Of a stretch of 42,745 nt of DNA, positions 3,031-42,254 are shown piece after piece. The translations under genes and the position numbers were made by a program. Below the pieces are notes generated by a model. The model had not been told where the DNA came from. It worked only from the letters and a program-made list of their open reading frames with translations, and ran no database searches. Positions within the stretch are counted from its first letter, which is position 1; each line of letters starts with the position of its first letter. The stretch is taken from assembly GCA_938040365.1 (NCBI GenBank), contig CALHXU010000082.1, positions 1 to 42,745 on the forward strand, read 5' to 3'. Origin of the DNA: an uncultured Acidimicrobiales bacterium (GTDB lineage Bacteria > Actinomycetota > Acidimicrobiia > Acidimicrobiales > SHLQ01).

Positions 3031-3059
3031 TGTATAGTTCGAATTCGACATATATGCAA
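3031..3059 (-). promoter_or_regulatory. Core promoter of the thiolase operon
   Basis: Read on the minus strand, TTGCAT (3054-3059) and TATACA (3031-3036) are separated by exactly 17 bases. This is close to the housekeeping sigma -35/-10 layout. Transcription would start near 3024 and leave a leader of about 110 bases. The spacer holds a TTCGAATTCGAC element, so a protein bound there would block RNA polymerase. Confidence 0.6.
3038..3049 (+). promoter_or_regulatory. TTC-N6-GAA family operator in the thiolase promoter
   Basis: TTCGAATTCGAC, containing the perfect 10-base palindrome TCGAATTCGA, lies in the spacer of the thiolase promoter. It is one of eight related sites in the window (consensus TTCGAWWWNGAA) and departs from consensus only at its last base. 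The preceding TAG matches the sites at 9204, 25271 and 42237. Repression is inferred from position; the binding protein is not shown by the sequence, though MftR is the leading candidate. Confidence 0.55.
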
Positions 3060-3128
3060 CACGGCAGGAAGTGACCTCGGGCGTCCGGACGTTCGGGTCT
3101 GTTTCTGCGCCCTTGCTTTGCTCTGTAC

Positions 3129-4307
3129 TTAGCTATCGACCCCAAGGTCTCGCCGGAATCCCTCTGGAATGAGGAGGTCGTCGGGGGACAGCTGAGCGAC
3201 GCTCGAATGACCGAGCGCCCGCAATGCCGAGTCGACCCCGTCGCGCATGATGTCGAGTACGTTTTCAACGCCAGCTTGACCGTTTGCCGCGAGACCCCAC
3301 AATGCAGCTCGTCCGAGCATGACGGCGCGTGCCCCGAACGCGAGCGCCTTGACCACGTCACTGCCGCGGCGGATCCCACCGTCGAGCACCACATCGATTT
3401 CACCGCCGACCGCTTCGGCGATTGCTGGCAACGCTCGGATCGTCGCCGGCGTCCCATCGATGTTGTTCCCGCCATGGTTCGACACCGAGATGGCGTGCAT
3501 CCCAGCATCGACGGCACGCTTGGCATCATCGACTCGCATGACCCCCTTGATCATCATTGGGCCACCCCATTCCTCGCGGAGCCATTCAAGATCTGACCAC
3601 GACGGCGGCGGGGTCATCATCCACTCGCCGTAGGACTCAAAGAACGTCGGCATATGATCGGGCGAGACCGCCATATTCGGCACCGACAGGTCGGGCAATT
3701 CGCCGGCGCGCAACCAATCGAGCAGCCAACGCGGGCGCACGATCGTCTCGGGAGCATGCTTGAGCATCGTGCGGATATCGATCTTCTCGGGGATTGTTGG
3801 GCTGCCCCAATCGCGGCTGTGCACGAACGACCAGTCGAGGGTCACGATCGCTCCAACCGCACCGGCGTCACGAGCCCGGTCCATGCGAATCACCATGTCT
3901 TCACGGGTACCCGACCAATACAGCTGAATGAAGGTCTTGGGGTTCGCAGCGACAACCTCCGCGATTGGCTTGCTCCCAAACGAGCTCAACCCCATTGCGG
4001 TCCCTCGAGCTGCAGCAGCTGCAGCAGAGGCGACCTCAGCGCGAGGGTGCACGGCTTGGACGCCGGTCGGCGAGATCAGCACCGGGATGTCGAGATGCTG
4101 GCCCATCACCTCAACCGAGAGGTCGCGACTCGCCGATAGTCCGGCGATTCGCGGAGCGAACTGCAACTCGCTAAACGCGTCGCAGTTGTCCGCTCGGGTC
4201 TGGCCGCGTTCGGCGCCCGCGTGCAGTGCGGCATGGACCGACTTTGGTAGACGTTTCGCCGACCGTTGTTCGGCAACGGCGATCGATTCGAACCAGTCAT
4301 TACTCAT
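3129..4307 (-). CDS. mftD: MftD, mycofactocin FMN-dependent maturase
   Basis: 392 residues of the FMN-dependent alpha-hydroxy-acid dehydrogenase (lactate oxidase/FMN dehydrogenase) fold. In characterised mycofactocin pathways MftD oxidatively deaminates the Val-Tyr-derived cyclic intermediate to give the redox-active dicarbonyl core (premycofactocin). Visible active-site elements are K254 (MMIKGV), H278 in SVSNHGGNN, the FMN-phosphate loop DGGIRRG (309-315) and LGR near 331-333. Its start overlaps mftF by four bases. It is the last gene of the operon here, displaced from its more usual place next to mftC. Confidence in the MftD assignment is high because of the linked mftABCEF genes. Confidence 0.93.
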   Translation of the reverse strand: MSNDWFESIAVAEQRSAKRLPKSVHAALHAGAERGQTRADNCDAFSELQFAPRIAGLSASRDLSVEVMGQHLDIPVLISPTGVQAVHPRAEVASAAAAAARGTAMGLSSFGSKPIAEVVAANPKTFIQLYWSGTREDMVIRMDRARDAGAVGAIVTLDWSFVHSRDWGSPTIPEKIDIRTMLKHAPETIVRPRWLLDWLRAGELPDLSVPNMAVSPDHMPTFFESYGEWMMTPPPSWSDLEWLREEWGGPMMIKGVMRVDDAKRAVDAGMHAISVSNHGGNNIDGTPATIRALPAIAEAVGGEIDVVLDGGIRRGSDVVKALAFGARAVMLGRAALWGLAANGQAGVENVLDIMRDGVDSALRALGHSSVAQLSPDDLLIPEGFRRDLGVDS

Positions 4308-5713
4308 GGGCGTCCTTTCGGTTTCGCAAACGGGTTGCGCTCTGATGCAGCAGAGGAAGGTGGCGGTGGTTTCCAGCGGCGCGGAATCACCGGGGTTAGG
4401 TCTCGATGATCTAGTGCCGACTTCCAGACGCCAGACCCATAGGCCACATCGCCGGCTAGATGATGGAGTGGTTGGTTCCTGTCATGGGCGAGTGGCGCCG
4501 TGGCGACGAGCGCTACGGTCATTGCCCGCCGCGACGACACGAGCATCATCACGATCGCGAACGGTGCGAAGAACTGGGTTACGTAGCGGCTGAGGCCGAG
4601 CCAGGTCTGCCAGATCGATCGGAGCGCAAATCTTGTCCGCAACGACCGAGCCGCGGCGGTCGGCGCGAGACTGGAGTGTGTCCGTGCAATCGTTGCGAGT
4701 AACGCTGCCACGAACAGTCGTGGCGCAACCGCCCAGGCGAACAGACAGGTGGCAGTAGGCCACGGCAATCCAAGGAAGTGCAGCACCTTTCCGGGGTGTC
4801 GTTTCGATAATGGTGCAGCCGATGTTCCGTACTGAAAGCGGCGGGCCATCACCGAAGCGATCTCGTGAGGCTCGTCGTGGTTGACCAAGACCGTGGGGTC
4901 ATAACGAACCGACCACCCAGCATCGGCCAGCCTCCACACGAGATCGACATCCTCCCCAACGCGTAGTTCGGGGTCGAACGCGGCGCCATCGACCGAGACC
5001 GCATCGAGGCAACGTCGTCGGACGAGTAGCGCTGCGGTGGGAACGTGGCCGATGCGGGTCAGCGCAGCCACCCGGCCTGGACGGTCGCCGAGATCGAGAA
5101 CGCCCGAACCACCGTGCTCGGCAATGACCCGCGGCGCCACCGCGGCGACCGATGGATCATCGAAGTGTGCGCACAGGGCGTCGATCCAGCCGCTGGTCGC
5201 TACACAGTCGCTGTCGATAAAGGCAATGAACTCCGAGTCGACGTGAGCGAGCGCGCAGTTGCGTGCCGCCGCTGGGCCACCGTTTTGTTTGCGTCGAATC
5301 AGCTGGACGTTATGGGTCGCGCAGATATCTGCAATCGCTCCGGGGTTTACCGACCCGTCGTCGACGACGATCGTCGGGTAGGTCGAATCGAGTGCGCGAA
5401 GGCAGCGGTCTAATTCGGCGGTCCGGTCGAGCACAGGCACCACGACGGTGACGTCGCGACGGACGTCGACCTCGCCAGGAACCGGGTGGGCCATCCCGTT
5501 GCTTATCAACGTCTGGGCGAGCACTCGGGCAGGGAGTGTCAACGGCCGGTCACCGTCACGAATCTGTCGCCACGCAATCGCACCCGGGCTCGACAGACGC
5601 AGTACTCGGAAAGGCGAACCGCCGAGCAATGTCTGTTCGGTTGCCTCGATGGTGTCGGCGTCGACTTCGACATCGAAGGTTTCGGGAAGTGATGTGGTGG
5701 CTTGGGGTGTCAT
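4304..5713 (-). CDS. mftF: MftF, mycofactocin glycosyltransferase (GT2)
   Basis: 469 residues. In known systems MftF adds a beta-1,4-glucan chain to mycofactocin. An N-terminal region of about 85 residues of the MftF type is followed by a GT-A domain with VVVPVLDR (90-97), DDGS (118-121) and the metal-binding DSD (167-169). Hydrophobic stretches follow in the C-terminal third (around FLGLPWPTATCLFAWAVAP and FFAPFAIVMMLVSS), suggesting membrane association. The start overlaps the SDR stop by four bases and the end overlaps mftD by four bases, so it is translated within the mft operon. The C-terminus is rich in Pro, Ser and Arg. Confidence 0.92.
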   Translation of the reverse strand: MTPQATTSLPETFDVEVDADTIEATEQTLLGGSPFRVLRLSSPGAIAWRQIRDGDRPLTLPARVLAQTLISNGMAHPVPGEVDVRRDVTVVVPVLDRTAELDRCLRALDSTYPTIVVDDGSVNPGAIADICATHNVQLIRRKQNGGPAAARNCALAHVDSEFIAFIDSDCVATSGWIDALCAHFDDPSVAAVAPRVIAEHGGSGVLDLGDRPGRVAALTRIGHVPTAALLVRRRCLDAVSVDGAAFDPELRVGEDVDLVWRLADAGWSVRYDPTVLVNHDEPHEIASVMARRFQYGTSAAPLSKRHPGKVLHFLGLPWPTATCLFAWAVAPRLFVAALLATIARTHSSLAPTAAARSLRTRFALRSIWQTWLGLSRYVTQFFAPFAIVMMLVSSRRAMTVALVATAPLAHDRNQPLHHLAGDVAYGSGVWKSALDHRDLTPVIPRRWKPPPPSSAASERNPFAKPKGRP

Positions 5714-6519
5714 AACGCCATCCCAGCGTCGACCGGGACCACTGCGCCGGTCATTGCGCTGTTGGCCTGACTCGCAAGGATGGTGAGCACGTGGGCAACC
5801 TCATCGGGCTCGATGAGCCGTTGCATCGGTTGCTGATTCGCGAACTCAGAAGTATCAGCAAGGTCGTACAGGCGGGCGCTTTCTCTCAGGATCGGGGTGT
5901 TCGTCGATCCCGGGCTGACGGCGTTGGCGGTGATGCCGGTGTCGCCAAGTTCGACCGCGAGCGCTCGGACGAGGCCCTCGACTCCAGCCTTTGCCGCGCA
6001 GTATGCGGCGATCATGGGAAGGCCGCGTTGCGCGCCTGCTGAACTGACGGCGAGGAAGCGTCCACTTCGCGGGGTTGGCCGTTTGAGCATCGCGGGGATC
6101 GACGCCCGAGCGAGCGCGAGCGTGCCACCGAGGTTCACCTCGATCATGGCCCGTTCTGCGGGAATCGGCATCTCCCATTGGGGAACTCCTCCAGCGATCG
6201 CGCCAGCGGCGGCGATGGCGACGTCGACGCCGCCCCACGTCTGTTCTGCCTGCTCAATGGCTGAAGCGATGGCATTCTCATCACGAACGTCGGCAACGAC
6301 GGCGATCCCTGTGCCCGCATCGGGCTGGGCGCACGCGGCGGAAACTACCGCCTCAAGTTCCGCACGGGTTCCGAGCGAGTATGGCAGCGCTGGATCGTCG
6401 GCAGCGATATCGATAGCCAGCACGGCGTAACCATTTCCGATGAGCCGGTGCACGGTCGCTGCGCCGATACCGCGAGCGGCTCCGGTCACGACGGCGACTC
6501 GGTGCACGCTCACACTCAC
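5710..6519 (-). CDS. Mycofactocin-coupled short-chain dehydrogenase
   Basis: 269 residues. The Rossmann motif TGAARGIG (12-19), AAAG (103-106), catalytic S160 and Y173/K177 (YCAAK) are present. After the second strand (AIDIA) there is an insertion of roughly 30 residues (about 41-72) before VVADVRD. Such an insertion is characteristic of mycofactocin-associated SDRs, which are known to hold NAD(H) tightly and need mycofactocin as the external acceptor. The gene is embedded between mftE and mftF with four-base overlaps on both sides. It is probably an alcohol or hydroxy-group dehydrogenase that recycles through mycofactocin; its substrate is unknown. Confidence 0.87.
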   Translation of the reverse strand: MSVSVHRVAVVTGAARGIGAATVHRLIGNGYAVLAIDIAADDPALPYSLGTRAELEAVVSAACAQPDAGTGIAVVADVRDENAIASAIEQAEQTWGGVDVAIAAAGAIAGGVPQWEMPIPAERAMIEVNLGGTLALARASIPAMLKRPTPRSGRFLAVSSAGAQRGLPMIAAYCAAKAGVEGLVRALAVELGDTGITANAVSPGSTNTPILRESARLYDLADTSEFANQQPMQRLIEPDEVAHVLTILASQANSAMTGAVVPVDAGMAL

Positions 6520-7229: not shown

Positions 7230-8493
7230 CCGATCGGGGAGTAGCGTCGGGGGCAAAACCTGCGAGCGGGCTCTCGTCGCAGGCTCGCTCGGGGGTAGTC
7301 CGTTCCGTAGACGATGCTCCGACCGCGGCGAGCGGCGGCTTCGTGGTGATCGACACCGGCGTGTAGGTGAGTGCGGCTGCGGGCCGGGAATGGTCGAGCG
7401 ACGGACGAGGCGTGGTCGCTCCATCGACGTTGCCGAGGAGGTCCTCTGCGTTTCCTTTCACGCACTCAGGGTCGGGGCCGTCGAGCGGTAGGCCGGTGAA
7501 GAACTTTGCTGCCATGCATCCGCCGCGGCAACTGTCATAGGCCGAGCACGATTCGCAGGCGCCACCGCTTTGCGGTTCTCGCAGCGAGGTGAACAGATCA
7601 GATTGCTGCCACACCGCTTGGAACCCGCCGGCGTCGAGGACGTTGCCAGCGAGAAACTCGTCGTGGATCGTAAATGGACACGCATACACATCGCCGATTG
7701 GATCGATGAGACACACGACCCGACCAGCGCCACACAGGTTGAGTCCGGGGAGTGCCTCGCCGTAGGCGTTGAGATGAAAGAACGAGTCGCCGGTCAACAC
7801 CCGTTCGCCGTTGGCGACGAGCCAGTCGTACAGCTCCCGCTGTTGGGGAGCGGTTGGGTGGAGCTGGTCCCACACATCGGCGCCACGGCCCGCCGGTCGA
7901 AGACGCGTGATTCGGAGTTGGGCGGCGTACTTCTTTGCAAGCGCATCGAACGCATCGAGCTGATCGATGTTCTCACGGGTCATCACCACCGAGATCTTGA
8001 ATCCTTCGAAGCCGGCGCTCGCGAGGTTTTCCATCGCCGAGATCGCCATGTCGAACGAGCCGGGTCCTCGGACGGTGTCATTGACCTCGCGGGTGGCGCC
8101 ATCGAGCGAGATCTGCACATCGATGTAGTCGCTCTCGGCGAGCAACCGCGCCCGCTCGGGCGTCAGGTTATTGCCGTTGGTCGAGAACTTGACGCCGACG
8201 CCATTGTCGACCGCGTAGTTCACAATCTCCCAAAAGTCGGAACGAATCGTGGGTTCACCGCCGCCGATGTTCACATAGAACACGCCCATCTCGGCGAGCG
8301 TGTCGACGACGCCCTTGCACTGTTCGGTGGTGAGCTCGTTCGGGTCGCGGCGCCCCGAACTCGATAAACAATGCACGCACGCAAGGTTGCACGAGTAGGT
8401 GAGCTCCCAGGTCATACAGATCGGCGCATCGAGGCCTCGCTCGAAATGGTCGATCAGGGTCGGTGTTGTGTGAACGGCGGTCGTGGTGCTCAT
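7222..8493 (-). CDS. mftC: MftC, radical SAM peptide maturase
   Basis: 423 residues. MftC uses S-adenosylmethionine and iron-sulfur clusters to decarboxylate the C-terminal Tyr of MftA and then cross-link it to the preceding Val. The radical SAM motif is C35-x3-C39-x2-C42, followed by GGGEP. A C-terminal SPASM-type auxiliary cluster region carries CGAGRVVC, a Cys in YACPF, and CESCSAYDSC with CRGGC. A tail of about 75 residues rich in Pro, Thr and Ala follows the last Cys and looks poorly ordered. The start overlaps mftB by four bases (ATGA). The precursor with the right C-terminus lies immediately upstream, so the assignment is secure. Confidence 0.96.
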   Translation of the reverse strand: MSTTTAVHTTPTLIDHFERGLDAPICMTWELTYSCNLACVHCLSSSGRRDPNELTTEQCKGVVDTLAEMGVFYVNIGGGEPTIRSDFWEIVNYAVDNGVGVKFSTNGNNLTPERARLLAESDYIDVQISLDGATREVNDTVRGPGSFDMAISAMENLASAGFEGFKISVVMTRENIDQLDAFDALAKKYAAQLRITRLRPAGRGADVWDQLHPTAPQQRELYDWLVANGERVLTGDSFFHLNAYGEALPGLNLCGAGRVVCLIDPIGDVYACPFTIHDEFLAGNVLDAGGFQAVWQQSDLFTSLREPQSGGACESCSAYDSCRGGCMAAKFFTGLPLDGPDPECVKGNAEDLLGNVDGATTPRPSLDHSRPAAALTYTPVSITTKPPLAAVGASSTERTTPERACDESPLAGFAPDATPRSDG

Positions 8494-8828
8494 GATCTCT
8501 GCTCTTCGCTCTGGCGTGGGACGATCATGTTTGACCGTGCAAGTGTGGACAGGGCTCGCTCGTGAGCGAGGTGGTCGCCGGGAGATACTCCGGCGTCGTG
8601 CAGGGCGAGTCGAGCGGTCTCACATGAGGCCAAAAGCTCGAGGGTTGTGCGTAGCTCGGGAGACTTGACGAACGAAAGCCGTCGATCGCCGTAGTGATAG
8701 AGCAGCGCACCGAAACGCTCCGGGCGAACTTGGACCTGCTCGTGGAGGTCCCACGCTGAATCGAAGTCGAACGCGTCAGTTCTGGCCGGAGCCGCGACGT
8801 TTTGGGTGGTCGTGCCCTGCGTAGCCAT
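8490..8828 (-). CDS. mftB: MftB, mycofactocin precursor-binding chaperone
   Basis: 112 residues with a PqqD-like RiPP recognition fold. MftB binds the MftA leader and presents it to MftC. The segment VQVRPERFGALLYHYGDRRLSF followed by KSPELRTTLELL (about residues 33-67) is the recognisable core. The start is three bases after the mftA stop and the end overlaps mftC, so stoichiometric co-translation is likely. The first 20 residues (Thr/Ala/Pro) are low complexity, so a slightly later start cannot be excluded. Confidence 0.93.
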   Translation of the reverse strand: MATQGTTTQNVAAPARTDAFDFDSAWDLHEQVQVRPERFGALLYHYGDRRLSFVKSPELRTTLELLASCETARLALHDAGVSPGDHLAHERALSTLARSNMIVPRQSEEQRS

Positions 8829-8831
8829 GGA

Positions 8832-9014
8832 TTAGTACACGCCGCACATGCCGTCGATCGAGACGTCCTCGACAAGATCGGTCTCGGCAACTACGTCGCT
8901 GTCGGCGTCAGCGCTGATGGTTGGGGTTTGCCCCACGCTGTCGTCGAGAGCGACGTCTTCATGGGTTGGTTCGGCAGCGTTCGTGGCGATTGCGTTCGTG
9001 GCGTTTGAGTTCAT
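8832..9014 (-). CDS. mftA: MftA, mycofactocin precursor peptide
   Basis: 60 residues ending in IDGMCGVY, the diagnostic C-terminus of the mycofactocin precursor; the final Val-Tyr becomes the cofactor core. The peptide is longer than the roughly 30-residue precursors of many mycobacteria. The extra N-terminal portion is rich in Asn, Ala, Asp and Thr, with an acidic leader (DVVAETDLVEDVS) just before the core, where MftB would bind. The ATG at 9012-9014 has only a weak purine tract upstream (GAAAGAAG), and a later in-frame start is not obvious. It heads the operon and is divergent from mftR. Confidence 0.93.
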   Translation of the reverse strand: MNSNATNAIATNAAEPTHEDVALDDSVGQTPTISADADSDVVAETDLVEDVSIDGMCGVY

Positions 9015-9180
9015 GGCGTTTGGCTTCTTTCGTTTCTTGTGTGGTGCTGGTATGTGGTTCGACCTCGTAGAGCTGATGACTAGCGTTGAGGTGGCTGGTG
9101 AGCGTGATCTTTCGATGGGCGAAGTAGGGTTCGCTCATGTCGAGATCGACCACCTGCAGATTAACGTCGTGGTGTGACAT
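8959..9180 (-). other. Possible small upstream reading frame overlapping mftA
   Basis: A 73-codon open frame (MSHHDVNLQVVDLDMSEPYF...) fills the mftA leader and runs into the first 56 bases of mftA in another frame. In its first 45 codons, about 70 percent of third positions are G or C, which looks coding-like. No ribosome-binding site precedes the ATG at 9180; an internal ATG at 9138 is an alternative. The part overlapping mftA is Arg/His-rich, as expected of a shadow. It could be a leader peptide coupling translation to mftA, or chance. I do not recognise the protein. Confidence 0.25.
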
Positions 9181-9187
9181 AAATCAA
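9158..9187 (-). promoter_or_regulatory. Candidate mftA promoter
   Basis: On the minus strand, TTGATT (9182-9187) and TAATCT (9158-9163) are 18 bases apart, an acceptable -35/-10 pair. This would give mftA a leader of roughly 135 bases. The TTC-N6-GAA operator at 9204-9221 sits just upstream of the -35 for this promoter. It is a weak match, and other starts are possible. Confidence 0.35.
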
Positions 9188-9203
9188 CCGGTCGCCATCA
9201 AAA

Positions 9204-9221
9204 TAGTTCGAAATGGAACAT
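9204..9221 (+). promoter_or_regulatory. TTC-N6-GAA family operator between mftA and mftR
   Basis: TAGTTC-GAAATG-GAACAT contains the inverted half-sites GTTC and GAAC (9206-9219) and matches TTCGAWWWNGAA at 9207-9218. It ends 10 bases before the mftR start codon and lies in the 217-base divergent region between mftR and mftA. This is the expected place for an autoregulatory TetR operator, which makes MftR the most economical candidate for binding the whole motif family. That link is inferred from position. Confidence 0.6.
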
Positions 9222-9231
9222 CTGGGACGAA

Positions 9232-9867
9232 ATGACCGAACGACAGCGCCCGAGCAGCGACCCAACTCAACCTCGAACGCCAGCACGGGGGAGACCGCCC
9301 AGCACAACCCCGCGAGAACTCGAATTGATTGCGCTCAACCTCTTTGCCGAACACGGCTTCGAAGAGACGACGGTCGAAGCAATCGCTGCTGCGGCGAACG
9401 TCACGAGCCGGACCTTCTTTCGATATTTTCCAGGCAAAGCCGATGTTTTGTGGCAGGGCTTTGACGACGAGATTGAGGCGATGCGCGACGCGCTTGGTTC
9501 GATCGACCCGGACGAGGGCATCTTCGATGGCATTCGGACCGCGGTCCTCACGGTCAACGACTACGGCCCAGATGACCTGCCCGAACTTCGAACCCGTTTA
9601 CACCTGTTGTCGAATGAACCAGCGCTGCAAGCGCACGCCGCGCTGCGTTACGAGGCGTGGGCCGAAGCAATCAGCGCGTTTGTGGGGAGCCGGACTGGCC
9701 AGAGTCCCACCGCGCTCTATCCGTTGGTGCTTGGCCGCGCGGTTCTGGCGGCCTGCCAGGGAGCCTTCGATGTATGGGCTGACGATGCCCGCGGCGAACA
9801 GTCCGATGGTCTTGTCACTCATCTCGACGCTGCGCTTGAGCTCCTTCGGGCCGGATTCGATTCGTGA
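9232..9867 (+). CDS. mftR: MftR, TetR-family regulator of the mycofactocin locus
   Basis: 211 residues. The N-terminal DNA-binding domain contains GRPPSTTPRELELIALNLFA (20-39), HGFEETTVEAIAAAANV (41-57) and SRTFFRYFPGKADVLW (59-74), the pattern of mycofactocin-system TetR regulators. The C-terminal ligand domain is helical. In mycobacteria MftR is reported to repress the mft genes and respond to long-chain acyl-CoA, which would suit this fatty-acyl-rich island. The gene is divergent from mftA, and a palindrome lies just before its start. The ATG is close to the palindrome with little room for a ribosome-binding site, so bound MftR would block its own gene. Confidence 0.9.
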   Translation: MTERQRPSSDPTQPRTPARGRPPSTTPRELELIALNLFAEHGFEETTVEAIAAAANVTSRTFFRYFPGKADVLWQGFDDEIEAMRDALGSIDPDEGIFDGIRTAVLTVNDYGPDDLPELRTRLHLLSNEPALQAHAALRYEAWAEAISAFVGSRTGQSPTALYPLVLGRAVLAACQGAFDVWADDARGEQSDGLVTHLDAALELLRAGFDS

Positions 9868-9875
9868 GGTTGGCA

Positions 9876-9925
9876 GCGCGTGAACTACGCGACCACTTTT
9901 GCGCGTGAACTACGCGACCACTCTT
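9876..9925. repeat. 25-base tandem duplication at the end of the MaoC-like gene
   Basis: A 22-base sequence occurs at 9876-9897 and again at 9901-9922, in a 25-base unit (9876-9900 and 9901-9925). The right copy encodes the last residues and stop codon of the hydratase gene ending at 9910; the left copy is its duplicate, downstream of the stop. It lies in the 42-base convergent gap after mftR and part of the hydratase end. A recent local duplication is the simplest explanation. Confidence 0.85.
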
Positions 9926-10356: not shown

Positions 10357-10369
10357 TGGGCTGCGGTCC

Positions 10370-10873: not shown

Positions 10874-10921
10874 CTCGAGCCTTTCTCATTACCCGCTGAA
10901 CGCAGGCGTGTGTCGCTGCGT

Positions 10922-10962
10922 CTGTCAGAAATTACTTCGGGCTGATAATATTCGAATATGAA
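10922..10962 (+). promoter_or_regulatory. Leaderless promoter and operator of the acyl-CoA dehydrogenase gene
   Basis: TAATAT (10946-10951) is a good -10 hexamer, with CTGTCA (10922-10927) 18 bases upstream as a possible -35. The -10 ends six bases before the ATG at 10958, so the transcript would begin at or beside the start codon. No ribosome-binding site is needed or seen. The operator TTCGAATATGAA (10951-10962), inside the palindrome ATATTCGAATAT (10948-10959), covers the end of the -10, the start site and the initiator codon. On the opposite strand, TATTAT and TTGCCC could form a weak promoter for the hydratase pair. Confidence 0.6.
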
Positions 10963-12184
10963 CGAAAAGGGCAAGGCTGGAACAGGTACTGACGTAAGCG
11001 ACCAAGACGATGCAAACATCGTGCGTGCGGCTGTCGAGGCGCTTCTCGATGAGTATCCGGTCGACACGACAACGACCGCAGAGTTTCTGGGCGCCCAGTT
11101 CGACCGCGGGCTGGCATGGGTGCACTTCGAAAAAGGACACGGCGGGCTCGGCGTCAACCCGAAGCTGCAACGCATCGTCACCGAAGCAGTTCGCGCCGCC
11201 GGCGGGCCCTTCTGTATGCCGATCAATCCCATTGGCTATGGAATGTGCGGGCCGACGATCCACGCGTGGGGCACCGTCGAACAAAAGGAACAGTACCTGC
11301 GGCCCCTGTTCACCTGCGAAGAGATCTGGTGTCAGCTCTTTTCCGAACCCGGCGCGGGTTCCGATGTTGCTGGCCTGTCGATGCGCGCGGTCGAAGACGG
11401 CGATGAATGGGTCGTAAATGGACAGAAGGTATGGACAACGTTGGGTCACGTGTCTCGGTATGGACTGCTCGTGACCCGCACCGATCCGGGTGTGGTCAAA
11501 CATGCCGGGCTCACCGCATTTGTGGTCGACATGGACCAGCCGACGGTCGATGTTCGGCCGCTCCGTCAGATGACCGGCGAGGCAGAATTTAACGAGGTCT
11601 ACTTCACCGACACCAGGGTCCCGGCAGACAACATGTTGGGCGAACCCGGAGATGGTTGGCGAGTCTCGGTCACCACCTTGATGAACGAACGAACCTCCCT
11701 CGGCGGTGGAACCCGCCGACGGGGCTCGGGCACTATTGGTGACCTTGTGCAGGTTTGGTCAAAGCTCGATGACGCACAGCGTTCACCTATTGCCAAGGAT
11801 CGAGTGACGAAGCTCTGGATCCGAGCAGAGGTCCACCGGTTGACAAACATGCGGGCCAGTCAGAATCGCAAGCTTGGCGAACCGGGGCCAGAGGGGTCGA
11901 TCGGCAAGCTCGAGTCGGCAAATCTGAACAAGGCGATCTACGAAGAACTCATGGCCTTGCTGGGGCCAGAATCGATGCTGTATGGCAGCTACGAGATGAC
12001 CCGACCCGACACCGCGATGAGCGGAGGTCCATGGCAGCAGCGTTTCTTGCGATCGCGCGCCAACTCGATCGAGGGCGGCACTACCGAGGTCATGTTGAAC
12101 ATCTTGGGCGAGCGTGTCCTCGGCCTCCCCGGAGATGTGCGCGTCGACCGCAACGTTCCGTGGTCCGAGGTGCCGAGAAACTAA
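10958..12184 (+). CDS. Acyl-CoA dehydrogenase (FadE type)
   Basis: 408 residues, full length. It should oxidise an acyl-CoA thioester to the 2-enoyl form with FAD, passing electrons to an electron-transfer flavoprotein. Visible segments are WCQLFSEPGAGSDVAGLSMRA, VVNGQKVWTT, and near the C-terminus SRANSIEGGTTEVMLNILGERVLGLP, where E372 is at the usual catalytic-base position. It is a single-gene unit, divergent from the hot-dog hydratase pair, which would act on its product. The ATG is used as a leaderless start. A GC-rich hairpin follows the stop. Substrate specificity cannot be read from the sequence. Confidence 0.9.
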   Translation: MNEKGKAGTGTDVSDQDDANIVRAAVEALLDEYPVDTTTTAEFLGAQFDRGLAWVHFEKGHGGLGVNPKLQRIVTEAVRAAGGPFCMPINPIGYGMCGPTIHAWGTVEQKEQYLRPLFTCEEIWCQLFSEPGAGSDVAGLSMRAVEDGDEWVVNGQKVWTTLGHVSRYGLLVTRTDPGVVKHAGLTAFVVDMDQPTVDVRPLRQMTGEAEFNEVYFTDTRVPADNMLGEPGDGWRVSVTTLMNERTSLGGGTRRRGSGTIGDLVQVWSKLDDAQRSPIAKDRVTKLWIRAEVHRLTNMRASQNRKLGEPGPEGSIGKLESANLNKAIYEELMALLGPESMLYGSYEMTRPDTAMSGGPWQQRFLRSRANSIEGGTTEVMLNILGERVLGLPGDVRVDRNVPWSEVPRN

Positions 12185-12196
12185 CCGCACTAATTG

Positions 12197-13788: not shown

Positions 13789-13818
13789 CTGACTGGTATT
13801 TCGATTATGAATTATACT
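13789..13818 (+). promoter_or_regulatory. Promoter of the ABC lipoprotein operon with embedded operator
   Basis: CTGACT (13789-13794) and TATACT (13813-13818) are 18 bases apart, a good -35/-10 pair. TTCGATTATGAA (13800-13811), a member of the TTCGAWWWNGAA family, fills the spacer. Transcription would start near 13825, leaving a leader of roughly 75 bases that ends in a G-rich ribosome-binding site before the GTG at 13902. Confidence 0.6.
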
Positions 13819-19878: not shown

Positions 19879-20202
19879 ATGACCATACGTCTCACCGTCC
19901 AACCAGCTGGCATCGAGATCGACGTCGACGCGGGTGAGTCGCTCTTGGAAGCGGCCGAGCGAGCTGGGTACTCGTGGCCGAGCGTGTGCGGCCGCCAAGG
20001 CGTGTGTTCGACCTGTTCGGTCCAGATCCTCGAGGCGAACGAGCCACTACCGGTCGCATCGTCGGCTGAACGCGAGACGCTCCAGATCTTGCCGTCCTAC
20101 CAAGACGGCGATGACGCCCTACGCCTGGCGTGTCAGATACGGCCGACGGCCGACCTCGCCGTGCGAAAGCTGGGTGTCCGCCCAATCGAGTCAAATGACT
20201 AG
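19879..20202 (+). CDS. Plant-type 2Fe-2S ferredoxin
   Basis: 107 residues from the ATG at 19879, preceded by AGGAGG. The 2Fe-2S ligands are C37-x5-C43-x2-C46 (CGRQGVCSTC) and C85 (LACQIRP), the standard plant-type/adrenodoxin-like pattern. Such small ferredoxins donate electrons to Rieske oxygenases or P450s. The Rieske oxygenase at 25570 lacks a reductase or ferredoxin of this type next to it, so this protein is a candidate donor. The gene overlaps the following crotonase gene by eight bases. Confidence 0.9.
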   Translation: MTIRLTVQPAGIEIDVDAGESLLEAAERAGYSWPSVCGRQGVCSTCSVQILEANEPLPVASSAERETLQILPSYQDGDDALRLACQIRPTADLAVRKLGVRPIESND

Positions 20203-20962
20203 CGAGCCGCAGAGCGTTACCGCACCAGCAGCCGGGGCTGGCGAGGTGCAGCTCCGCGTCGACGGAGCGATCGCCCAAATCACCCTGGCGCGACCATCGA
20301 GTCGCAACGCGCTGACCGATCAGGTCATTCGAGACCTGCTCGCCATCCTCGACGAGGTCGGGAGTTCAACGACGGTGCGGGCTGTGATCCTCGAAGGGGA
20401 AGGGTCAACGTTTTGTGCTGGCGGAGACACCAAAGTGCCCACCCGACTGACGTCGCCGTCGCAGGCGGAGCGTCTCGAGATGGCCGAGCTCTACGGTCGG
20501 GCATTCGCCCGACTCGACAATCTCCCACAAGCTACGATCGCCCGAGTTCGCGGTCCAGCGATCGGCGGCGGGGCGTTGCTCGCAATCACCTGTGACCTCC
20601 GAGTCTGTGATTTTTCCGCAGTTTTCCGCTTCCCCGAAGTCCCGATGGGTCAATACCTCATGGCCGCAGGAACATCTCGGCTCGTCCGTGAGCTCGGCGT
20701 GCCTCGAACTCGAGACCTCCTGCTGACCGGCCGTTCACTCGACGCTACTGCCGCGCTCGACTGGGGCGTGGTCACACGCGTGGTCGAGGGTGACGCGCTG
20801 GATGCGCACGTCGATGAGATGGCCGCCGGGATTGCAGCTATCCCAGGGAACACGGCCCGAATGACCCTCGAGTCGATTCGCTCCTGTTCGTCAAAGGCGG
20901 CCTCGTCATGGGCCGACGACTATCTGGCAACGCTTCCCAAACCAGAGACACCAGAGCGGTAG
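20195..20962 (+). CDS. Crotonase-family protein lacking one hydratase glutamate
   Basis: 255 residues from the ATG at 20195, which overlaps the ferredoxin stop. The frame is open much further upstream, but that part lies over the ferredoxin gene. The CoA/oxyanion segment FCAGGDTK is at 73-80 and GGGALLA at 124-130. At the position of the first hydratase glutamate (GGGCELA in classical hydratases) there is L128, whereas the second glutamate is kept as E148 (FPEVPMG). That pattern resembles delta3,delta2-enoyl-CoA isomerases and other crotonases more than true hydratases. The call rests on motif alignment by eye. Confidence 0.82.
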   Translation: MTSEPQSVTAPAAGAGEVQLRVDGAIAQITLARPSSRNALTDQVIRDLLAILDEVGSSTTVRAVILEGEGSTFCAGGDTKVPTRLTSPSQAERLEMAELYGRAFARLDNLPQATIARVRGPAIGGGALLAITCDLRVCDFSAVFRFPEVPMGQYLMAAGTSRLVRELGVPRTRDLLLTGRSLDATAALDWGVVTRVVEGDALDAHVDEMAAGIAAIPGNTARMTLESIRSCSSKAASSWADDYLATLPKPETPER

Positions 20963-27008: not shown

Positions 27009-27023
27009 CGGCGTTCGATATGT

Positions 27024-27035
27024 TTCTATTTCGAA
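27024..27035 (-). promoter_or_regulatory. TTC-N6-GAA operator of the ferredoxin-P450 operon
   Basis: On the minus strand the site reads TTCGAAATAGAA, identical to the copy at 25298-25309. It lies about 70 bases before the ferredoxin start. AT-rich sequence around it (GATATGTTTCTATTT) may include the -10, but I cannot fix the promoter. A small GACC-GAAA-GGTC hairpin with a GNRA-type loop (27057-27068) lies in the presumed leader. Confidence 0.55.
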
Positions 27036-27103
27036 ATGTGCAGAACTGAACAGATTGACCGAAAGGTCGATCCTCACCACTGCACATGATGGAGGGGGAG
27101 ACA

Positions 27104-27310
27104 GTGTCAACGATTCGAGTCGATTCTGATCGATGCCAGGGCCACGCCATGTGTGTCACACAGGCACCGTCACTCGTCGATGTCGACGACCTTGGCTTCG
27201 CCGTCATCATTGGTGACGGCACGCTGAGCACGCCCGAACATCACGAACAGGCGGAGCGCGCGGTTGCCTGTTGCCCCGAACAAGCGCTACACGTGGAGGA
27301 CGAATCATGA
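27104..27310 (+). CDS. 3Fe-4S ferredoxin (P450 redox partner)
   Basis: 68 residues from a GTG with GGAGGGGG a few bases upstream; an ATG at 27086 would extend over that binding site. Cluster ligands are C11, C17 (CQGHAMC, with H14 at the position where 4Fe-4S proteins have a Cys) and C57 in CCPEQAL. This is the single-cluster 3Fe-4S type found beside actinobacterial P450 genes. Its end overlaps the P450 start by four bases, so it is almost certainly the electron donor for that enzyme. A ferredoxin reductase is not present in the window. Confidence 0.92.
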   Translation: MSTIRVDSDRCQGHAMCVTQAPSLVDVDDLGFAVIIGDGTLSTPEHHEQAERAVACCPEQALHVEDES

Positions 27311-33873: not shown

Positions 33874-33913
33874 TTACGACAGCCTCTGGCGACCAACTCG
33901 CGATGCGCAAACC

Positions 33914-33927
33914 CTATCGAACGCTAG
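33914..33927 (+). promoter_or_regulatory. CTAGCG-family operator of the acyl-CoA synthetase
   Basis: CTATCG-AA-CGCTAG lies between the synthetase start and the TetR gene end. Together with its flank it shares CGAACGCTAGATCGGA (16 bases) with the site at 34736, so the recognised element may extend beyond the 14-base core. Confidence 0.65.
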
Positions 33928-33955
33928 ATCGGAAGTCTAGCTCGATTGTGGCGTG

Positions 33956-34639
33956 TCAGGAATTGTTGAATCCGGAGAGTTGGTTCTCGGTACCTTCTGT
34001 CGAGAGTCCGGACATGAGGAGTCGGCTAAAGTCGTCGGCGTACTCATGGGGGCGACGGCGTGAGCCCGGCCGTACGCAAATCGCGTACCAGTGCAGGGTT
34101 CCCATGATGGCAATACGGGCGCTCGGCAGGGAAATATCTCGAAAGATCCCGCGCTCTTGGCCGTCGAGAAGGATCTGATCGAGGGCGGCATCGAGTCGGT
34201 TGCGTCCGTCCTCCATGAGCGCGCTGGCCTCGTCGGGAAGTGCGTGGCGCTCCCGGAAGAATGCGACCATTCGGCTGTGGTAACGCTCGATTGTGTCGGT
34301 CTGGATCTCGATAAACCGGCGAAGTTTATCGCGCGGGTCCCGGTCGGATTTTGCCAGCTCTTCGAGGGGTTCGAGGAGAACATCGATCACCGACTGGTGC
34401 AGGAGCACCAAAATATTGACCTTGTTCCCAACGTGGTAGTACAGCGTTGGTTGCGACACGTCGGCAGCTTCGGCCAGGTCGCGCACCGTCGTTGCATGAA
34501 AACCGTTCGTCACAAAGAAGTCGGCGGCAATATCGAGGATCTCCTCACGTCTCGCATTCGACTTATCGGTGCGGGGCGAAGCAACATCGGCCCCAGTCGT
34601 ATCGTCGACCGCTGCGCCGTCGTTCGAATCTCGTCCCAT
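33956..34639 (-). CDS. TetR-family transcriptional regulator
   Basis: 227 residues from the ATG at 34637-34639, with GAGGAG upstream; the frame is open nine codons earlier. The first 28 residues are unstructured. The DNA-binding domain follows: ARREEILDIAADFFVTNGF (29-47), then ATTVRDLAEAADVSQPTLYYHVGNK (49-73). The C-terminal helical domain (VLLEPLEELAKSDRDPRDKL onwards) should bind a ligand, plausibly an acyl-CoA given the neighbours. It is divergent from the E1 alpha gene, with two CTAGCG-type sites in between and another beyond its end. It is therefore the natural candidate to bind that motif; this is inference from position. Confidence 0.87.
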   Translation of the reverse strand: MGRDSNDGAAVDDTTGADVASPRTDKSNARREEILDIAADFFVTNGFHATTVRDLAEAADVSQPTLYYHVGNKVNILVLLHQSVIDVLLEPLEELAKSDRDPRDKLRRFIEIQTDTIERYHSRMVAFFRERHALPDEASALMEDGRNRLDAALDQILLDGQERGIFRDISLPSARIAIMGTLHWYAICVRPGSRRRPHEYADDFSRLLMSGLSTEGTENQLSGFNNS

Positions 34640-34669
34640 GTGACTCCTCGGAGGTGGCAAACGCACAAT

Positions 34670-34683
34670 GTAGCAAACGTTCG
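34670..34683 (+). promoter_or_regulatory. Weak second CTAGCG-type site near the TetR start
   Basis: GTAGCA-AA-CGTTCG matches 10 of 14 positions of CTAGCGAACGCTAG and lies 31 bases before the TetR start codon, 66 bases from the strong site at 34736. It could be the autoregulatory half of a two-site arrangement. Confidence 0.35.
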
Positions 34684-34735
34684 CTCAGTTTGTTTGTTTC
34701 ATAGGTTGTGTGCCTGACCCGTGAGCGTCTACTGT

Positions 34736-34749
34736 GTAGCGAACGCTAG
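34736..34749 (+). promoter_or_regulatory. CTAGCG-family operator in the TetR/E1 divergent region
   Basis: GTAGCG-AA-CGCTAG, followed by ATCGGA, lies 42 bases before the E1 alpha start and about 97 bases from the TetR start. It shares 16 contiguous bases with the site at 33914. This is the usual place for a TetR operator that controls both the regulator and the divergent operon. Confidence 0.65.
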
Positions 34750-34790
34750 ATCGGACGTCTCCGAACGGACGATTTCGGCTGGAGAAGTCG

Positions 34791-36853: not shown

Positions 36854-36877
36854 GCGAAAGATACGCCGGGGGGAACT

Positions 36878-39598: not shown

Positions 39599-40293
39599 CG
39601 GTTCGATTGGCAGTCGACGCGTTGTCGGGTGGGTACGGCAAGGTCCGAGTGGTGCGCGACATAAACGTGACGGTCGAGTCCGGTGAGGTCCTTGCGATTC
39701 TTGGACCGAACGGGGCGGGAAAGACAACGACGCTGCTGACGATCGCCGGCATGCTCGCGCGACATGCAGGGACCGTGACCGTCGATGGTCAGGAAATGGG
39801 ATCTGGTGATCCGGTCGAAACCAATCACAATGGGGTCGTGCTGGTGCCAGACGACCGAGCGCTCTTTCAGCCGCTGACGGTCGCAGAGCATCTCGAACTG
39901 GCATGTCAGAAGACCAAGCGGAACCCCCGCGAACTCCTCGATGTCTTTCCGACCCTCGAGAAACGGTGGGGGGTAGCGGCGGGAAACCTGTCGGGTGGTG
40001 AACAGCAAATGTTGGCGCTTGCGCGAGGCCTTGCGCAGAACCCACGCGTGCTGCTGATCGATGAGATGAGCATGGGGCTTGCGCCGATCATCGTCGAGCA
40101 TCTGTTGCCGGTGGTGCGCCAGGCTGCAGCAGAGCACGGCGCGGCGGTCGTGCTCGTCGAACAACACGTGTCGCTCGCGCTCGAGGTTGCCGATCACGCC
40201 ATGGTGATAGCCCACGGCGAGGTCGTGCTCCATGCGACCGCCGAGGAGTTGCGAAAGAACGAGGGTGCGCTCGACGCGGCCTATCTCGGCTAA
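39595..40293 (+). CDS. livF: LivF-type ABC transporter ATPase
   Basis: 232 residues, overlapping the fusion gene by four bases. Walker A GPNGAGKTT is at 37-45, the signature is LSGGEQQ, Walker B is VLLIDEM, followed by SMGLAP, typical of LivF. The switch His is in VEQHVSLAL. It would pair with the ATPase domain of the fused protein to power import. It lacks a binding-protein gene next to it; the only candidate in the window is the lipoprotein at 13902-15248, which lies under both types of putative operator. Confidence 0.93.
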   Translation: MTVRLAVDALSGGYGKVRVVRDINVTVESGEVLAILGPNGAGKTTTLLTIAGMLARHAGTVTVDGQEMGSGDPVETNHNGVVLVPDDRALFQPLTVAEHLELACQKTKRNPRELLDVFPTLEKRWGVAAGNLSGGEQQMLALARGLAQNPRVLLIDEMSMGLAPIIVEHLLPVVRQAAAEHGAAVVLVEQHVSLALEVADHAMVIAHGEVVLHATAEELRKNEGALDAAYLG

Positions 40294-40338
40294 CCCATAG
40301 TGCACCAAACCAGGTCTGTCAGAACCAACCATCTAGAA

Positions 40339-40352
40339 CTAGCGCTCGATCG
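40339..40352 (-). promoter_or_regulatory. CTAGCG-family site, upstream copy, monooxygenase gene
   Basis: On the minus strand the site reads CGATCG-AG-CGCTAG, with a perfect right half and a partial left half. It is 65 bases upstream of the perfect site at 40404, close to the 66-base distance seen between the two sites at 34670 and 34736. Confidence 0.4.
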
Positions 40353-40403
40353 CTATGGCACCACCGGCGGCGGCAAAGTTCTGTGAACTGAACCTTCTTG
40401 AGG

Positions 40404-40417
40404 CTAGCGAACGCTAG
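40404..40417 (+). promoter_or_regulatory. Perfect CTAGCG-family operator of the monooxygenase gene
   Basis: CTAGCG-AA-CGCTAG has perfect six-base arms around AA, the best member of the family. It lies 47 bases before the monooxygenase start, in a 171-base gap after livF. The likely -10 is TAGACT at 40428-40433, so a bound protein would sit at the promoter. Confidence 0.7.
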
Positions 40418-40464
40418 ATATCGCGCGTAGACTAGGCATACGAAGAACGCATGAGGCAACTGGG

Positions 40465-42117
40465 ATGAGCGAAGAACAGGCGCAGGACATACCCGAGCAG
40501 CGGGGATCGATGCCAGATCACGAGGCGCTCGTAATCGGTGCTGGTGTTGCCGGGATCTACCAGATCAAGCGGCTCACCGATATGGGTGTCGACGCGATGC
40601 TCATCGAAGCCGATGAAGACCTCGGCGGAACATGGTTTCGAAATCGATACCCGGGGGCTCGATTCGATTCAGAGAGCTACACCTACGGTTACTCCTTTTC
40701 AAAAGAACTGCTGAACGAGTGGAGCTGGAGTGAGCGTTTCTCTGGCCAACCCGAGAATCTCCGCTACTTGAACTTCGTTGCCGACAAGTTCGATCTGCGA
40801 AAGCACATGCGGTTCAACTGTCGCGTCGCATCGATGCGGTTCGATGAAGACGAGTCTTTCTGGACGATTACGCTCACCAACGGCCAGGAGATGAGCGCCC
40901 GGTTCGTCGTGTCCGGGCTTGGTCTGTTGTCTATGCCGACCCCACCCCGGTTCGACGGAATGGAAACCTTTGAGGGGGAGTCATGGCACACCTACTACTG
41001 GCCCAAAGAACCGGTCGACCTGTCGGATAAGCGGGTTGCGGTTATCGGCACTGGCGCGACCGGTATCCAAGTGATTGCCGAGATTGCCGACAAGGTTGGG
41101 CACCTCACTGTGCTGCAACGCCGCCCAAACTGGAGCGCGCCGCTCAACAATGCGCCGATTAGTCCTGAAGAGATGGACGACATTCGCTCCCGATACGACG
41201 AGATTTACGCGGCGTGTGCTCGAACGCCGGGTGGGTTTGAACACGAACCCGACCGTCGAGGCTTCTGGAATGTTACCCGCGAGGAGCGGTTGGCCATATG
41301 GGATGACCTCTACGAACAGCCGGGCTTCGGTATCTGGCTTCGGAACTTCGCCGAGATCTTCACCGACGAAGAGGCCGGCGCCGAATTCTCTGAATACATC
41401 GCCGACCGGATCCGCGCTCGCGTCGACGACCCTGAGATCGCCGACAAGCTCATCCCTAAAGACCATCTATTCGGGATGCAGCGAGTACCCCTCGAGACCA
41501 AGTACTTCGAGGTGTACAACCAGCCCAACGTCGACCTCGTCGATGTGACCGCAACGCCGATTGAGGCCATTACGCCGACTGGTGTGAAGACCACCGAAGC
41601 CGAGTTCGAGTTCGATGTCATCGTGTATGCAACCGGATTCGACGCGATCACCGGAGCCTATGACCGCATCGACATTTCAGGCATCGGTGGCCAACGCTTG
41701 GGCGAGAAGTGGTCGGACGGGCCAACGACCTACATGGGCCTCATGGTCAATGGGTTCCCGAACTTGTTCATGATTGCTGGCCCGCAGGGCGCCTCGGCCT
41801 CCAGCAATTTCCCTCGGAGTATCGAACAAGCGGTCAACTGGATCTCGGACCTTCTCGGACATGTCCGCGACAATGGAGCGTCTCGGGTTGAGGCGACCGA
41901 GGCTGCACAGGTCGATTGGACGACCCATGTCGCGTCGATGTACCCGCGCTTTTTGATCGGTCGCGGCAAAGGATGGATCACGGGTTATAACTCCAACGTC
42001 GAAGGCCGTGTCGAGGGCGTGATCCGCCATGGCGTCTACAACGGTGGAGCGCCGAAATATCACAAGCGTCTCAAAGAGATCAAGGAACGCGGGTACGAGG
42101 GTGTCGCAATCACCTGA
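40465..42117 (+). CDS. Baeyer-Villiger-type flavin monooxygenase
   Basis: 550 residues. There are two Rossmann motifs, GAGVAG (25-30, FAD) and GTGATG (195-200, NADPH). The Baeyer-Villiger fingerprint FxGxxxHxxxWP is present as F169 to P180 (FEGESWHTYYWP). The region GGTWFRNRYPGARFDSES (54-71) matches cyclohexanone/steroid-type enzymes. Such enzymes insert oxygen next to a ketone, turning cyclic ketones into lactones. It is a single gene with its own operator. An ATG at residue 16 is an alternative start. The ketone substrate, perhaps formed by the SDRs in this island, is unknown. Confidence 0.92.
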   Translation: MSEEQAQDIPEQRGSMPDHEALVIGAGVAGIYQIKRLTDMGVDAMLIEADEDLGGTWFRNRYPGARFDSESYTYGYSFSKELLNEWSWSERFSGQPENLRYLNFVADKFDLRKHMRFNCRVASMRFDEDESFWTITLTNGQEMSARFVVSGLGLLSMPTPPRFDGMETFEGESWHTYYWPKEPVDLSDKRVAVIGTGATGIQVIAEIADKVGHLTVLQRRPNWSAPLNNAPISPEEMDDIRSRYDEIYAACARTPGGFEHEPDRRGFWNVTREERLAIWDDLYEQPGFGIWLRNFAEIFTDEEAGAEFSEYIADRIRARVDDPEIADKLIPKDHLFGMQRVPLETKYFEVYNQPNVDLVDVTATPIEAITPTGVKTTEAEFEFDVIVYATGFDAITGAYDRIDISGIGGQRLGEKWSDGPTTYMGLMVNGFPNLFMIAGPQGASASSNFPRSIEQAVNWISDLLGHVRDNGASRVEATEAAQVDWTTHVASMYPRFLIGRGKGWITGYNSNVEGRVEGVIRHGVYNGGAPKYHKRLKEIKERGYEGVAIT

Positions 42118-42236
42118 CCGGTCATTCTCTGACACCGCCATCACCTCAAACTGCCCTCACGTCAAACGACAGGGTGTGGCTATGGCAAGCGGTCCGCTCG
42201 CCGCGTGACTATACAAATGCGACCATTCGTGTAATG

Positions 42237-42254
42237 TAGTTCGATATAGAACTA
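42237..42254 (+). promoter_or_regulatory. TTC-N6-GAA operator of the AveC-like gene
   Basis: TAGTTC-GATATA-GAACTA has perfect six-base inverted arms, the most symmetric member of the TTCGAWWWNGAA family (core 42240-42251). TAATGT (42232-42237), a possible -10, abuts it. It is 63 bases before the start codon of the truncated membrane-protein gene. Confidence 0.65.

Follow-up and report, generated by a model that had tools for sequence, protein, structure and literature searches.

A palindromic operator common to promoters of an uncultured Acidimicrobiales island for CoA-thioester catabolism, with two MarR paralogues as candidate readers

The stretch of DNA analysed here (the window, 42,745 nucleotides of an uncultured Acidimicrobiales bacterium, genome G000) carries mycofactocin (mft) genes in an island that looks like one for steroid- or terpene-like degradation, and a palindrome, TTCGAWWWNGAA (motif A), recurs ahead of so many of its genes as to raise the question of whether it is an operator and, if so, which protein reads it. 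The first-pass annotation had listed eight sites of a common layout and suggested the mycofactocin regulator MftR as their possible reader. The coordinates of all eight are correct, seven sites being exact and that at 3038 one mismatch off (the pattern gives eight rows for seven distinct places, 25274 being its own reverse complement); TAG does stand in front of four of them (3038, 9207, 25274 and 42240), and the form TAGTTC-N6-GAACTA is found at 42240. The chance expectation had been put at well under one in the window, in agreement with the mean of 0.12 and maximum of 2 seen in 100 dinucleotide shuffles. The description of the sites as intergenic holds except at 10951, which is not strictly so because the ATG (10958) of an acyl-CoA dehydrogenase gene falls within the site.

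A symmetric 20-bp matrix was built from the window (20-bp form ATAGTTCGAA/TTCGAACTAT), with 15 bits as the main threshold; in the window, its own training sequence, it finds eight sites of at least 15 bits, as against 0.13 expected. These are given here with their counterparts in the sister species, G004, and in two more distant Acidimicrobiales, G482 (= G013) and G481 (= G059).

3034-3053: promoter of the thiolase-SDR-enoyl-CoA hydratase genes (minus strand, 2913-210), 29.7 bits; 19 of 20 bases kept in G004, versus 46% across the remaining intergenic region
9203-9222: before mftR (12-mer at 9207-9218, mftR start at 9232), 23.1 bits; 0 of 20 bases aligned in G004
10947-10966: over the start codon of the acyl-CoA dehydrogenase gene 10958-12184, 18.2 bits; all 11 of the 11 bases outside the gene kept in G004
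13796-13815: promoter of the substrate-binding protein, aldehyde dehydrogenase and NDMA-dependent alcohol dehydrogenase genes, abutting the -10, 25.9 bits; G004 25.5 bits, G482 23.4 bits
25270-25289: site 1 of the Rieske oxygenase promoter, 31.9 bits, the strongest in the window; G004 31.9 bits
25294-25313: site 2 of the Rieske promoter, in its likely -35/-10 spacer, 24.9 bits; present in G004 together with a third tandem copy, with a single strong site at this promoter in G482 (27.7 bits) and in G481 (30.4 bits)
27020-27039: ferredoxin-P450 promoter, just past TTGACA-17-TATGTT, 24.9 bits; G004 26.3 bits, G482 16.5 bits
42236-42255: upstream of the AveC-like gene, 28.6 bits; G004 21.5 bits, G482 22.1 bits, G481 13.0 bits

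Promoters were called with a simple scorer based on the -35 and -10 consensus hexamers, TTGACA and TATAAT. Three sites had been assigned to -35/-10 spacers; this stands, as likely, for 13800 and 25298, but 27024 lies directly downstream of its -10, and 42240 precedes TTGACG (by eye; the scorer placed other weak pairs higher there). For 3038 and 9207 no clear placement emerged. Where promoters could be compared, the position near the core promoter is kept: the site at 13796-13815 adjoins TATACT both in G000 and in G004 (by script) and GATACT in G482 (by eye), while at the AveC-like promoter of both G004 and G482 the site spans 22 to 11 bases upstream of the -35.

Over the whole G000 assembly TTCGAWWWNGAA occurs at 25 distinct places, and its density is far from equal: 7 in the 42.7 kb of the window (164 per Mb) versus 18 in the remaining 3.58 Mb (5.0 per Mb), 33-fold lower. 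The same pattern read backwards, as a genome-wide control, gives 3 rows versus 34. Fifteen of the 18 places beyond the window were classified: 12 lie within ORFs of at least 240 aa and three (C120:181, C120:2147 and C207:9221) outside such ORFs. The split is only approximate, since three window sites, 25274, 25298 and 27024, are likewise overlapped by long antisense ORFs. C120:2147 is upstream of a related SDR / CoA-transferase pair. An open frame of 300 codons contains C246:1429, which scores 15.9 bits, and one of 400 codons contains C269:2300; in the stretches examined of C156, C207, C183, C269 and C105, which like C246 were chosen for an exact match, nothing reaches 15 bits.

Two contigs chosen regardless of the motif tell the same story in the relatives: contig C1 of G004 has 10 sites of at least 15 bits (0.23 expected), and C64, the 45-kb island contig of G482, has six (0.07 expected), nearly all of them upstream of orthologous operons. 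In G481, three further sites lie on C44 and C203, in stretches chosen for exact matches, while the main island contig, C291, which carries its MarR, has none of at least 15 bits and four of 11-14 bits. Matches at C291:23698 (exact, inside a P450 gene) and at C64:1778 of G482 (14.1 bits, at no orthologous promoter) were set aside. Motif A is found at orthologous promoters in the sister species and more patchily in the two distant ones. Being denser here than elsewhere in the genome and conserved in relatives, it is, as had been proposed, one operator common to many island promoters, that of a real regulon for a CoA-thioester catabolic island.

The features that bear on its reader are these.

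8490-8828, minus strand: mftB, with which the mft series B-C-E-SDR-F-D opens; the series extends as far as 3129 (the stop codon of mftA ends at 8832)
9162-9189: element between mftA and mftR, 28 bp identical in G004, a candidate operator for MftR (or a Crp-like protein)
9232-9867, plus strand: mftR, TetR family (TIGR03968 match of 213.4 bits, short of the curated 224.9; PDB 8x0a, a chain named MftR, matched at E 2.7e-26)
33956-34666, minus strand: second TetR-family regulator (TetR_N and TetR_C_24)
34737-34748: motif B (TAGCGAACGCTA), in the promoter region common to the second TetR and PDH-E1-like genes
40405-40416: motif B before the flavin monooxygenase gene 40465-42117 (exact copy at G004 C1:37638)
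G000 contig C229, L080:595-1110 and L080:3826-4326, both minus strand: two MarR-family paralogues

That MftR reads motif A, so that acyl-CoA controls mycofactocin synthesis along with the catabolic units, is suggested by the 23-bit site just ahead of mftR, by the position of mftR beside island genes in both G000 and G004, and by a recognition region which differs from that of the M. tuberculosis-type chain, so that the operator may differ too. MftR is nevertheless probably not the reader, because the mftR site is missing in G004, where the six other promoters retain 70-100% of their motif A bases, because none of the mft contig stretches examined in G482 and G481 carries a site of at least 15 bits, and because in the draft genome of G481 no MftR orthologue was found (best TetR 27% identity). 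The footprinted operator of M. smegmatis MftR, T-N2-GGCA-N5-TGCC-N2-A in the excerpted text of PMC8728441, is of another sequence than TTCGAWWWNGAA and of odd rather than even symmetry; GGCA-N5-TGCC matches the window twice (24080 and 31794), neither time at a motif A site. MftR was thus rejected as first choice, and this reading is very unlikely. MftR probably constitutes a separate layer, using the conserved 9162-9189 element, which differs from motif A and has the form TGTGACATTAATCAAC in G013; in the mycobacterial system, likewise, mftR adjoins the mft genes and a conserved element precedes mftA. MftR-like matches in the order mostly lack a link to mft genes: among 18 loci examined (L023-L040), another mft gene adjoins the TetR gene in four (G000, G004, G013 and G078), and at L033 the neighbour is only a 28% SDR match. 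The second TetR, which matches KstR2 chains at about E 2e-17 (better matches exist), is present in the island of G000, G004, G482 and G481, but it is a highly improbable reader of motif A and was rejected, since its own promoter carries palindrome B in G000, G004 (exact copy at C1:31991) and G482 (exact copy at C64:32618), and no motif A appears there in a window scan at 8 bits. No exact copy of motif B precedes this gene in G481. In matching KstR2 and adjoining CoA ligase and oxygenase genes it resembles the KstR2-like TetR regulons of steroid catabolism; palindrome B here is TAGCGANCGCTA, presumably distinct from the KstR2 motif.

With MftR and the second TetR eliminated, the two MarR paralogues are favoured, and these island-borne candidates are, judging by sequence, more likely than MftR to read motif A. 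Their genes lie outside the window on C229, a contig picked because it holds an exact motif match and linked to the window by synteny and by an overlap of 370 bp (96.8%, 12 mismatches). Both match PF01047, the MarR winged-helix domain, above cut-off, and all six copies, from four genomes, share one helix, TLIHPPxMTYTxDWL, and one wing, VDRRS, without variation. A MarR profile search of 397 genomes of the order gave matches of E 1e-25 or better in only G000, G004, G013 and G059; since the query had been built from the last three, only the G000 match and the absence elsewhere are informative. G481 and G482 were themselves located through MarR, and motif A was afterwards found at their island genes. 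Class-wide, with 395 genomes searched, the first MarR profile had matches of at least E 1e-10 strength in 60 (best outside G000, 8.7e-22). Among 30 of these MarR loci (L081-L110, none much longer than 3 kb, 29 of them outside G000) TTCNAWWTNGAA matched at one, L093, which says little because the MarR2 locus of the window genome itself, L081, gave no match; the recognition helix, where shown, is a different one.

The MarR1 gene lies downstream of a thioesterase gene, the promoter of which carries weak sites in pairs (G000, G004). MarR2 comes after Rieske2 and a ligase gene, and weak sites in the ligase promoter score 14.4 bits in G000, 15.2 in G004 and 12.1 in G482. A matrix match at L080:1836, coding and inside the thioesterase gene, was set aside. 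The MarR genes' own promoters have the weakest motif A sites (11-15 bits in G000 and G004, 12.1 in G482), and that of MarR2 in G481 has none of at least 11 bits. G004 has a third MarR (L062:6567-7079), which was discarded as a candidate, its best G000 match being 32% identical; its promoter has one 10-bit match (C1:47134).

As expected for a MarR-family regulon, motif A, scored here as 20 bp, is a 16-20 bp palindrome in its target promoters. In the excerpted text of PMC6798810, the MarR protein MhqR of S. aureus binds TATCTCGAA-aTCGAaATA; the MhqR operator, in Staphylococcus and Bacillus, is also a palindrome with a TCGAA/TTCGA core and overlaps a start site, and the B. subtilis regulon likewise comprises several operons. 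The MhqR genes, however, are for quinone detoxification and belong to another phylum. According to the portion of PMC5487221 seen, binding of CoA thioesters causes CouR and FerC to let go, and CouR/FerC/HcaR-type proteins are MarR repressors of CoA-thioester catabolism, as is proposed for this island, though they act on lignin-derived acids, while motif A extends to roughly eight promoters in some 53 kb. The MarR profile has CouR among its PDB matches (6c28, E 3.8e-9). Among the matches listed, judged by title and start of abstract, none in searches on MarR with mycofactocin, or on Acidimicrobi-, mycofactocin and regulon, describes a motif A system, and a search on MarR-family operators, acyl-CoA and palindromes gave none holding TTCGAA.

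A regulator whose gene lies elsewhere than in the island, such as an IclR, GntR or Crp protein or a further MarR, would account for the likely regulon members on other contigs (G000 C120:2147; G481 C44 and C203) and for the MarR genes having such weak motif A sites of their own. Exact pattern counts in nine further members of the genus, however, none a MarR carrier where listed, give 4-27 rows per genome, spread across contigs, so that an island-borne reader fits better and an outside one is rather doubtful. As for motif A being a core-promoter or sigma-factor element rather than an operator, several sites do touch a likely -35 or -10, but its palindromic form, its varying position (in the spacer, past the -10, ahead of the -35) and its rarity in the remaining genome make this scarcely credible.

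The reading we prefer, at a probability of roughly 0.6, is of an island-wide operator read by the two MarR paralogues, with MftR probably as a separate layer. Dimers of MarR1 and MarR2 would bind motif A over the spacer, the -10 or the start site at several promoters and block transcription there, leaving once a CoA thioester or another early substrate intermediate accumulates; the oxygenases, P450, dehydrogenases, beta-oxidation genes and transporter substrate-binding protein would then be induced jointly. As to mftR, it has an operator copy in the window species and none in the sister species.

One tentative possibility, which we consider less probable than not, is that the MarR pair, with its near-identical recognition helices, and the KstR2-like TetR, with its own palindrome, make up a two-operator control of a mycofactocin-dependent polycyclic catabolic island, whose substrate would be steroid- or terpenoid-like, and that the MarR operator has reached mftR. 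If so, substrate sensing would also determine how much cofactor regulator is present, a feed-forward link absent from the sister species. The MarR reading sets cofactor regulation, by MftR, apart from substrate regulation and gives a mycofactocin-linked catabolic island of uncultured Acidimicrobiales a testable operator, a target list and candidate regulators; the motif A operators could also act as sensors for finding the island's substrate.

The exact core of the recurrent palindrome, TTCGAWWWNGAA (motif A), is found at 7 places in the window (42,745 bp, 61% G+C; contig C82 of the 3.63-Mb draft genome G000) versus 0.12 expected, and at 18 places in the remaining 3.58 Mb of that genome, bearing out its proposed concentration in the island. 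The same island is present in a sister species, an uncultured Acidimicrobiales MAG (G004; contig CALKGG010000001.1, here C1), where 7 exact places lie on the 66.8-kb island contig versus 8 in the remaining genome. Two more distant Acidimicrobiales, G482 (= G013) and G481 (= G059, both equated by identical match coordinates), have 4 of 24 distinct exact places on the 44.9-kb island contig C64 and 1 of 13, intragenic, on island contig C291, respectively. Nine other genomes of the genus each carry, among the matches listed, 4-27 exact rows, scattered over contigs; the genomes compared are mostly draft metagenome assemblies.

A 20-bp symmetric matrix (consensus ATAGTTCGAA-TTCGAACTAT) was built from the eight window sites, which, as its training set, score 18-32 bits. 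Ten stretches were scanned, each against 30 first-order random copies; G004 C1, G482 C64 and G481 C291 were chosen without regard to motif A, while C229, G481 C44 and G481 C203 were fetched for the exact matches they hold. Mirror and complement controls over the ten stretches gave no site of at least 15 bits, and one of at least 11 bits in 3 of the 10.

Motif A sites of at least 15 bits, observed / expected
Window (training sequence): 8 / 0.13
G004 C1: 10 / 0.23
G482 C64: 6 / 0.07
G481 C291: 0 / 0.03
C229 (motif-selected; one of the two intragenic): 2 / 0.07
G481 C44 (motif-selected): 1 / 0.0
G481 C203 (motif-selected): 2 / 0.0

C229 (10.9 kb, also of G000) overlaps the right end of the window (42376-42745) by 370 bp at 96.8% identity (12 mismatches) and is collinear in gene order with G004 C1, and is therefore likely the window's continuation, perhaps as a strain variant. 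The overlap itself may mark a break in the assembly combined with strain variation; alternatively, the two stretches may be near-identical copies.

Island promoters carry motif A in all four genomes: the signal is strong in G000, G004 and G482, and in G481 it is found chiefly at Rieske1.

Motif A at orthologous promoters (bits)
Rieske1: G000 31.9 + 24.9; G004 31.9, 26.8, 24.3; G482 27.7; G481 30.4
Substrate-binding protein-ALDH-ADH: G000 25.9; G004 25.5; G482 23.4; G481 13.7 (before the substrate-binding gene; 14.1 + 11.5 before a separate ALDH gene)
Ferredoxin-P450: G000 24.9; G004 26.3; G482 16.5; G481 none of at least 11
AveC-like: G000 28.6; G004 21.5; G482 22.1; G481 13.0
Thiolase1: G000 29.7; G004 26.5; no such gene seen on the G482 and G481 contigs that were read
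ACAD1: G000 18.2; G004 18.2; not seen in G482 and G481
VWA-domain gene: G000 21.2; G004 15.5
Off-island SDR-CoA transferase pair: G000 25.4 (C120:2147); G482 18.3 + 18.9; G481 24.9 + 17.0 (SDR merely 44% identical); G004 none of at least 8 directly before the SDR, 22.8 + 20.4 elsewhere on the same 7.1-kb contig
MarR2 operon: G000 14.4; G004 15.2; G482 12.1; G481 none of at least 11
MarR1 operon: G000 11.3 + 14.9; G004 11.7 + 11.8; MarR1 not seen in G482 and G481

Between the window and G004, 19/20, 11/11, 19/20, 38/40, 18/20 and 14/20 site bases are kept, versus 31-72% of the remainder of each intergenic region; the mftR site lies in a gap of the alignment and so keeps 0/20.

Within the window the candidate readers are MftR and a second, KstR2-like TetR. 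The first-pass annotation had suggested that motif A may be under MftR, a proposal that is not supported: the mftR promoter site (23.1 bits in G000) is absent in G004, and G482 has none. No mftR was found in G481, and the mft-gene stretches on G482 C22 (first 12 of 15.6 kb), G482 C180 and G481 C54 hold no site of at least 15 bits; C180 has one 13.5-bit site (14748), which lies roughly 1 kb downstream of mftR. The M. smegmatis MftR operator is described as the palindrome T-N2-GGCA-N5-TGCC-N2-A, still bound after single changes in it (PMC8728441). A 28-bp element between mftA and mftR (window 9162-9189) is identical in G004, and reads TGTGACATTAATCAAC in G013 and TTGACACTCAGTGTCAA in genome G078; by eye, these elements and the M. 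smegmatis site share a TGNCA-N5-TGNCA scheme, to which the window's fit is imperfect. The element is a candidate MftR site, or a Crp-like one (TGTGA-N6-TCA). The window MftR has VTSRTFFRYFPGK as its recognition region, PDB 8x0a (named MftR) has IARRTLFRYYASK; given this difference, the window operator cannot be transferred from a known MftR with certainty.

The second TetR (33956-34666, minus strand) has a palindrome of its own, motif B (TAGCGANCGCTA), in its promoter in G000 (window 34737), G004 and G482; the exact form was not found in that promoter in G481, where it precedes a CoA ligase (L112:16781). It also lies before a flavin monooxygenase in G000 (window 40405) and G004. Across G000 the exact form occurs 4 times (twice in the window, once at the off-island pair on C120 and once on C201), with 5 rows of the reversed control, and G004 has 5 forward versus 3 reversed rows; with the control comparable, the evidence for motif B is place and conservation, not count. 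Weaker forms occur at window 13628, 13708, 19736, 21502 and 33917.

Outside the window, the favoured candidates are two MarR proteins (PF01047) encoded on C229 (L080:595-1110 and L080:3826-4326), 56% identical and nearly the same in recognition helix and wing. A MarR query against genome contigs gave 3 loci, one in G004 and the others, a single copy each, in G481 and G482, whose proteins share the recognition helix of the C229 pair. Of 397 genomes in the order searched with a profile, four contain this MarR at E 1e-25 or better (G000, G004, G013, G059); since the profile was built from three of these (G004, G013, G059), the informative part is its absence from any further genome.

The island encodes CoA ligases (the one beside Rieske2 named by eye), acyl-CoA dehydrogenases, thiolases, Rieske oxygenases (Rieske2 with a KshA C-terminal domain), the flavin monooxygenase, an NDMA-dependent alcohol dehydrogenase, a P450 with ferredoxin, a branched-chain-type ABC transporter, a ChsH2-like OB-fold protein (below Pfam's cut-off) and an OYE-family oxidoreductase (best NCBIfam match mycofact_OYE_2, below cut-off). 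Such a gene set points to the breakdown of a polycyclic or terpenoid acid.

Window features
27098-27304: gene for a small 4Fe-4S ferredoxin (Fer4_15) that opens the P450 operon
About 19882-20100: reading frame that by eye resembles a 2Fe-2S ferredoxin, preceding the enoyl-CoA hydratase ORF
19934-20962: enoyl-CoA hydratase ORF as listed, its first 100 codons apparently out of frame

The site abuts TATACT at the substrate-binding protein gene in G000 and G004 (GATACT in G482, by eye), lies within the likely spacer at Rieske1 in G000, G004 and G482, and follows TTGACA-17-TATRTT at the P450 genes in G000 and G004; no clear promoter was found there in G482. Roughly half of the sites in the window touch a probable core promoter or a start site, so steric repression is likeliest, the bound regulator blocking the promoter there and a pathway CoA thioester releasing it from motif A. 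Such a proposed mechanism would resemble that of CouR and FerC, repressors released by CoA thioesters (PMC5487221). At the AveC-like gene the site occupies the stretch 22 to 11 bases upstream of the -35 in G004 and G482, seemingly likewise in G000 by eye, which would allow activation instead; PenR is a MarR activator (PMC5487221).

Should the mftR site serve for repression, MftR, which in M. smegmatis represses mft, would rise with substrate; one may then speculate that it forms a feed-forward brake on mft, which acyl-CoA could release.
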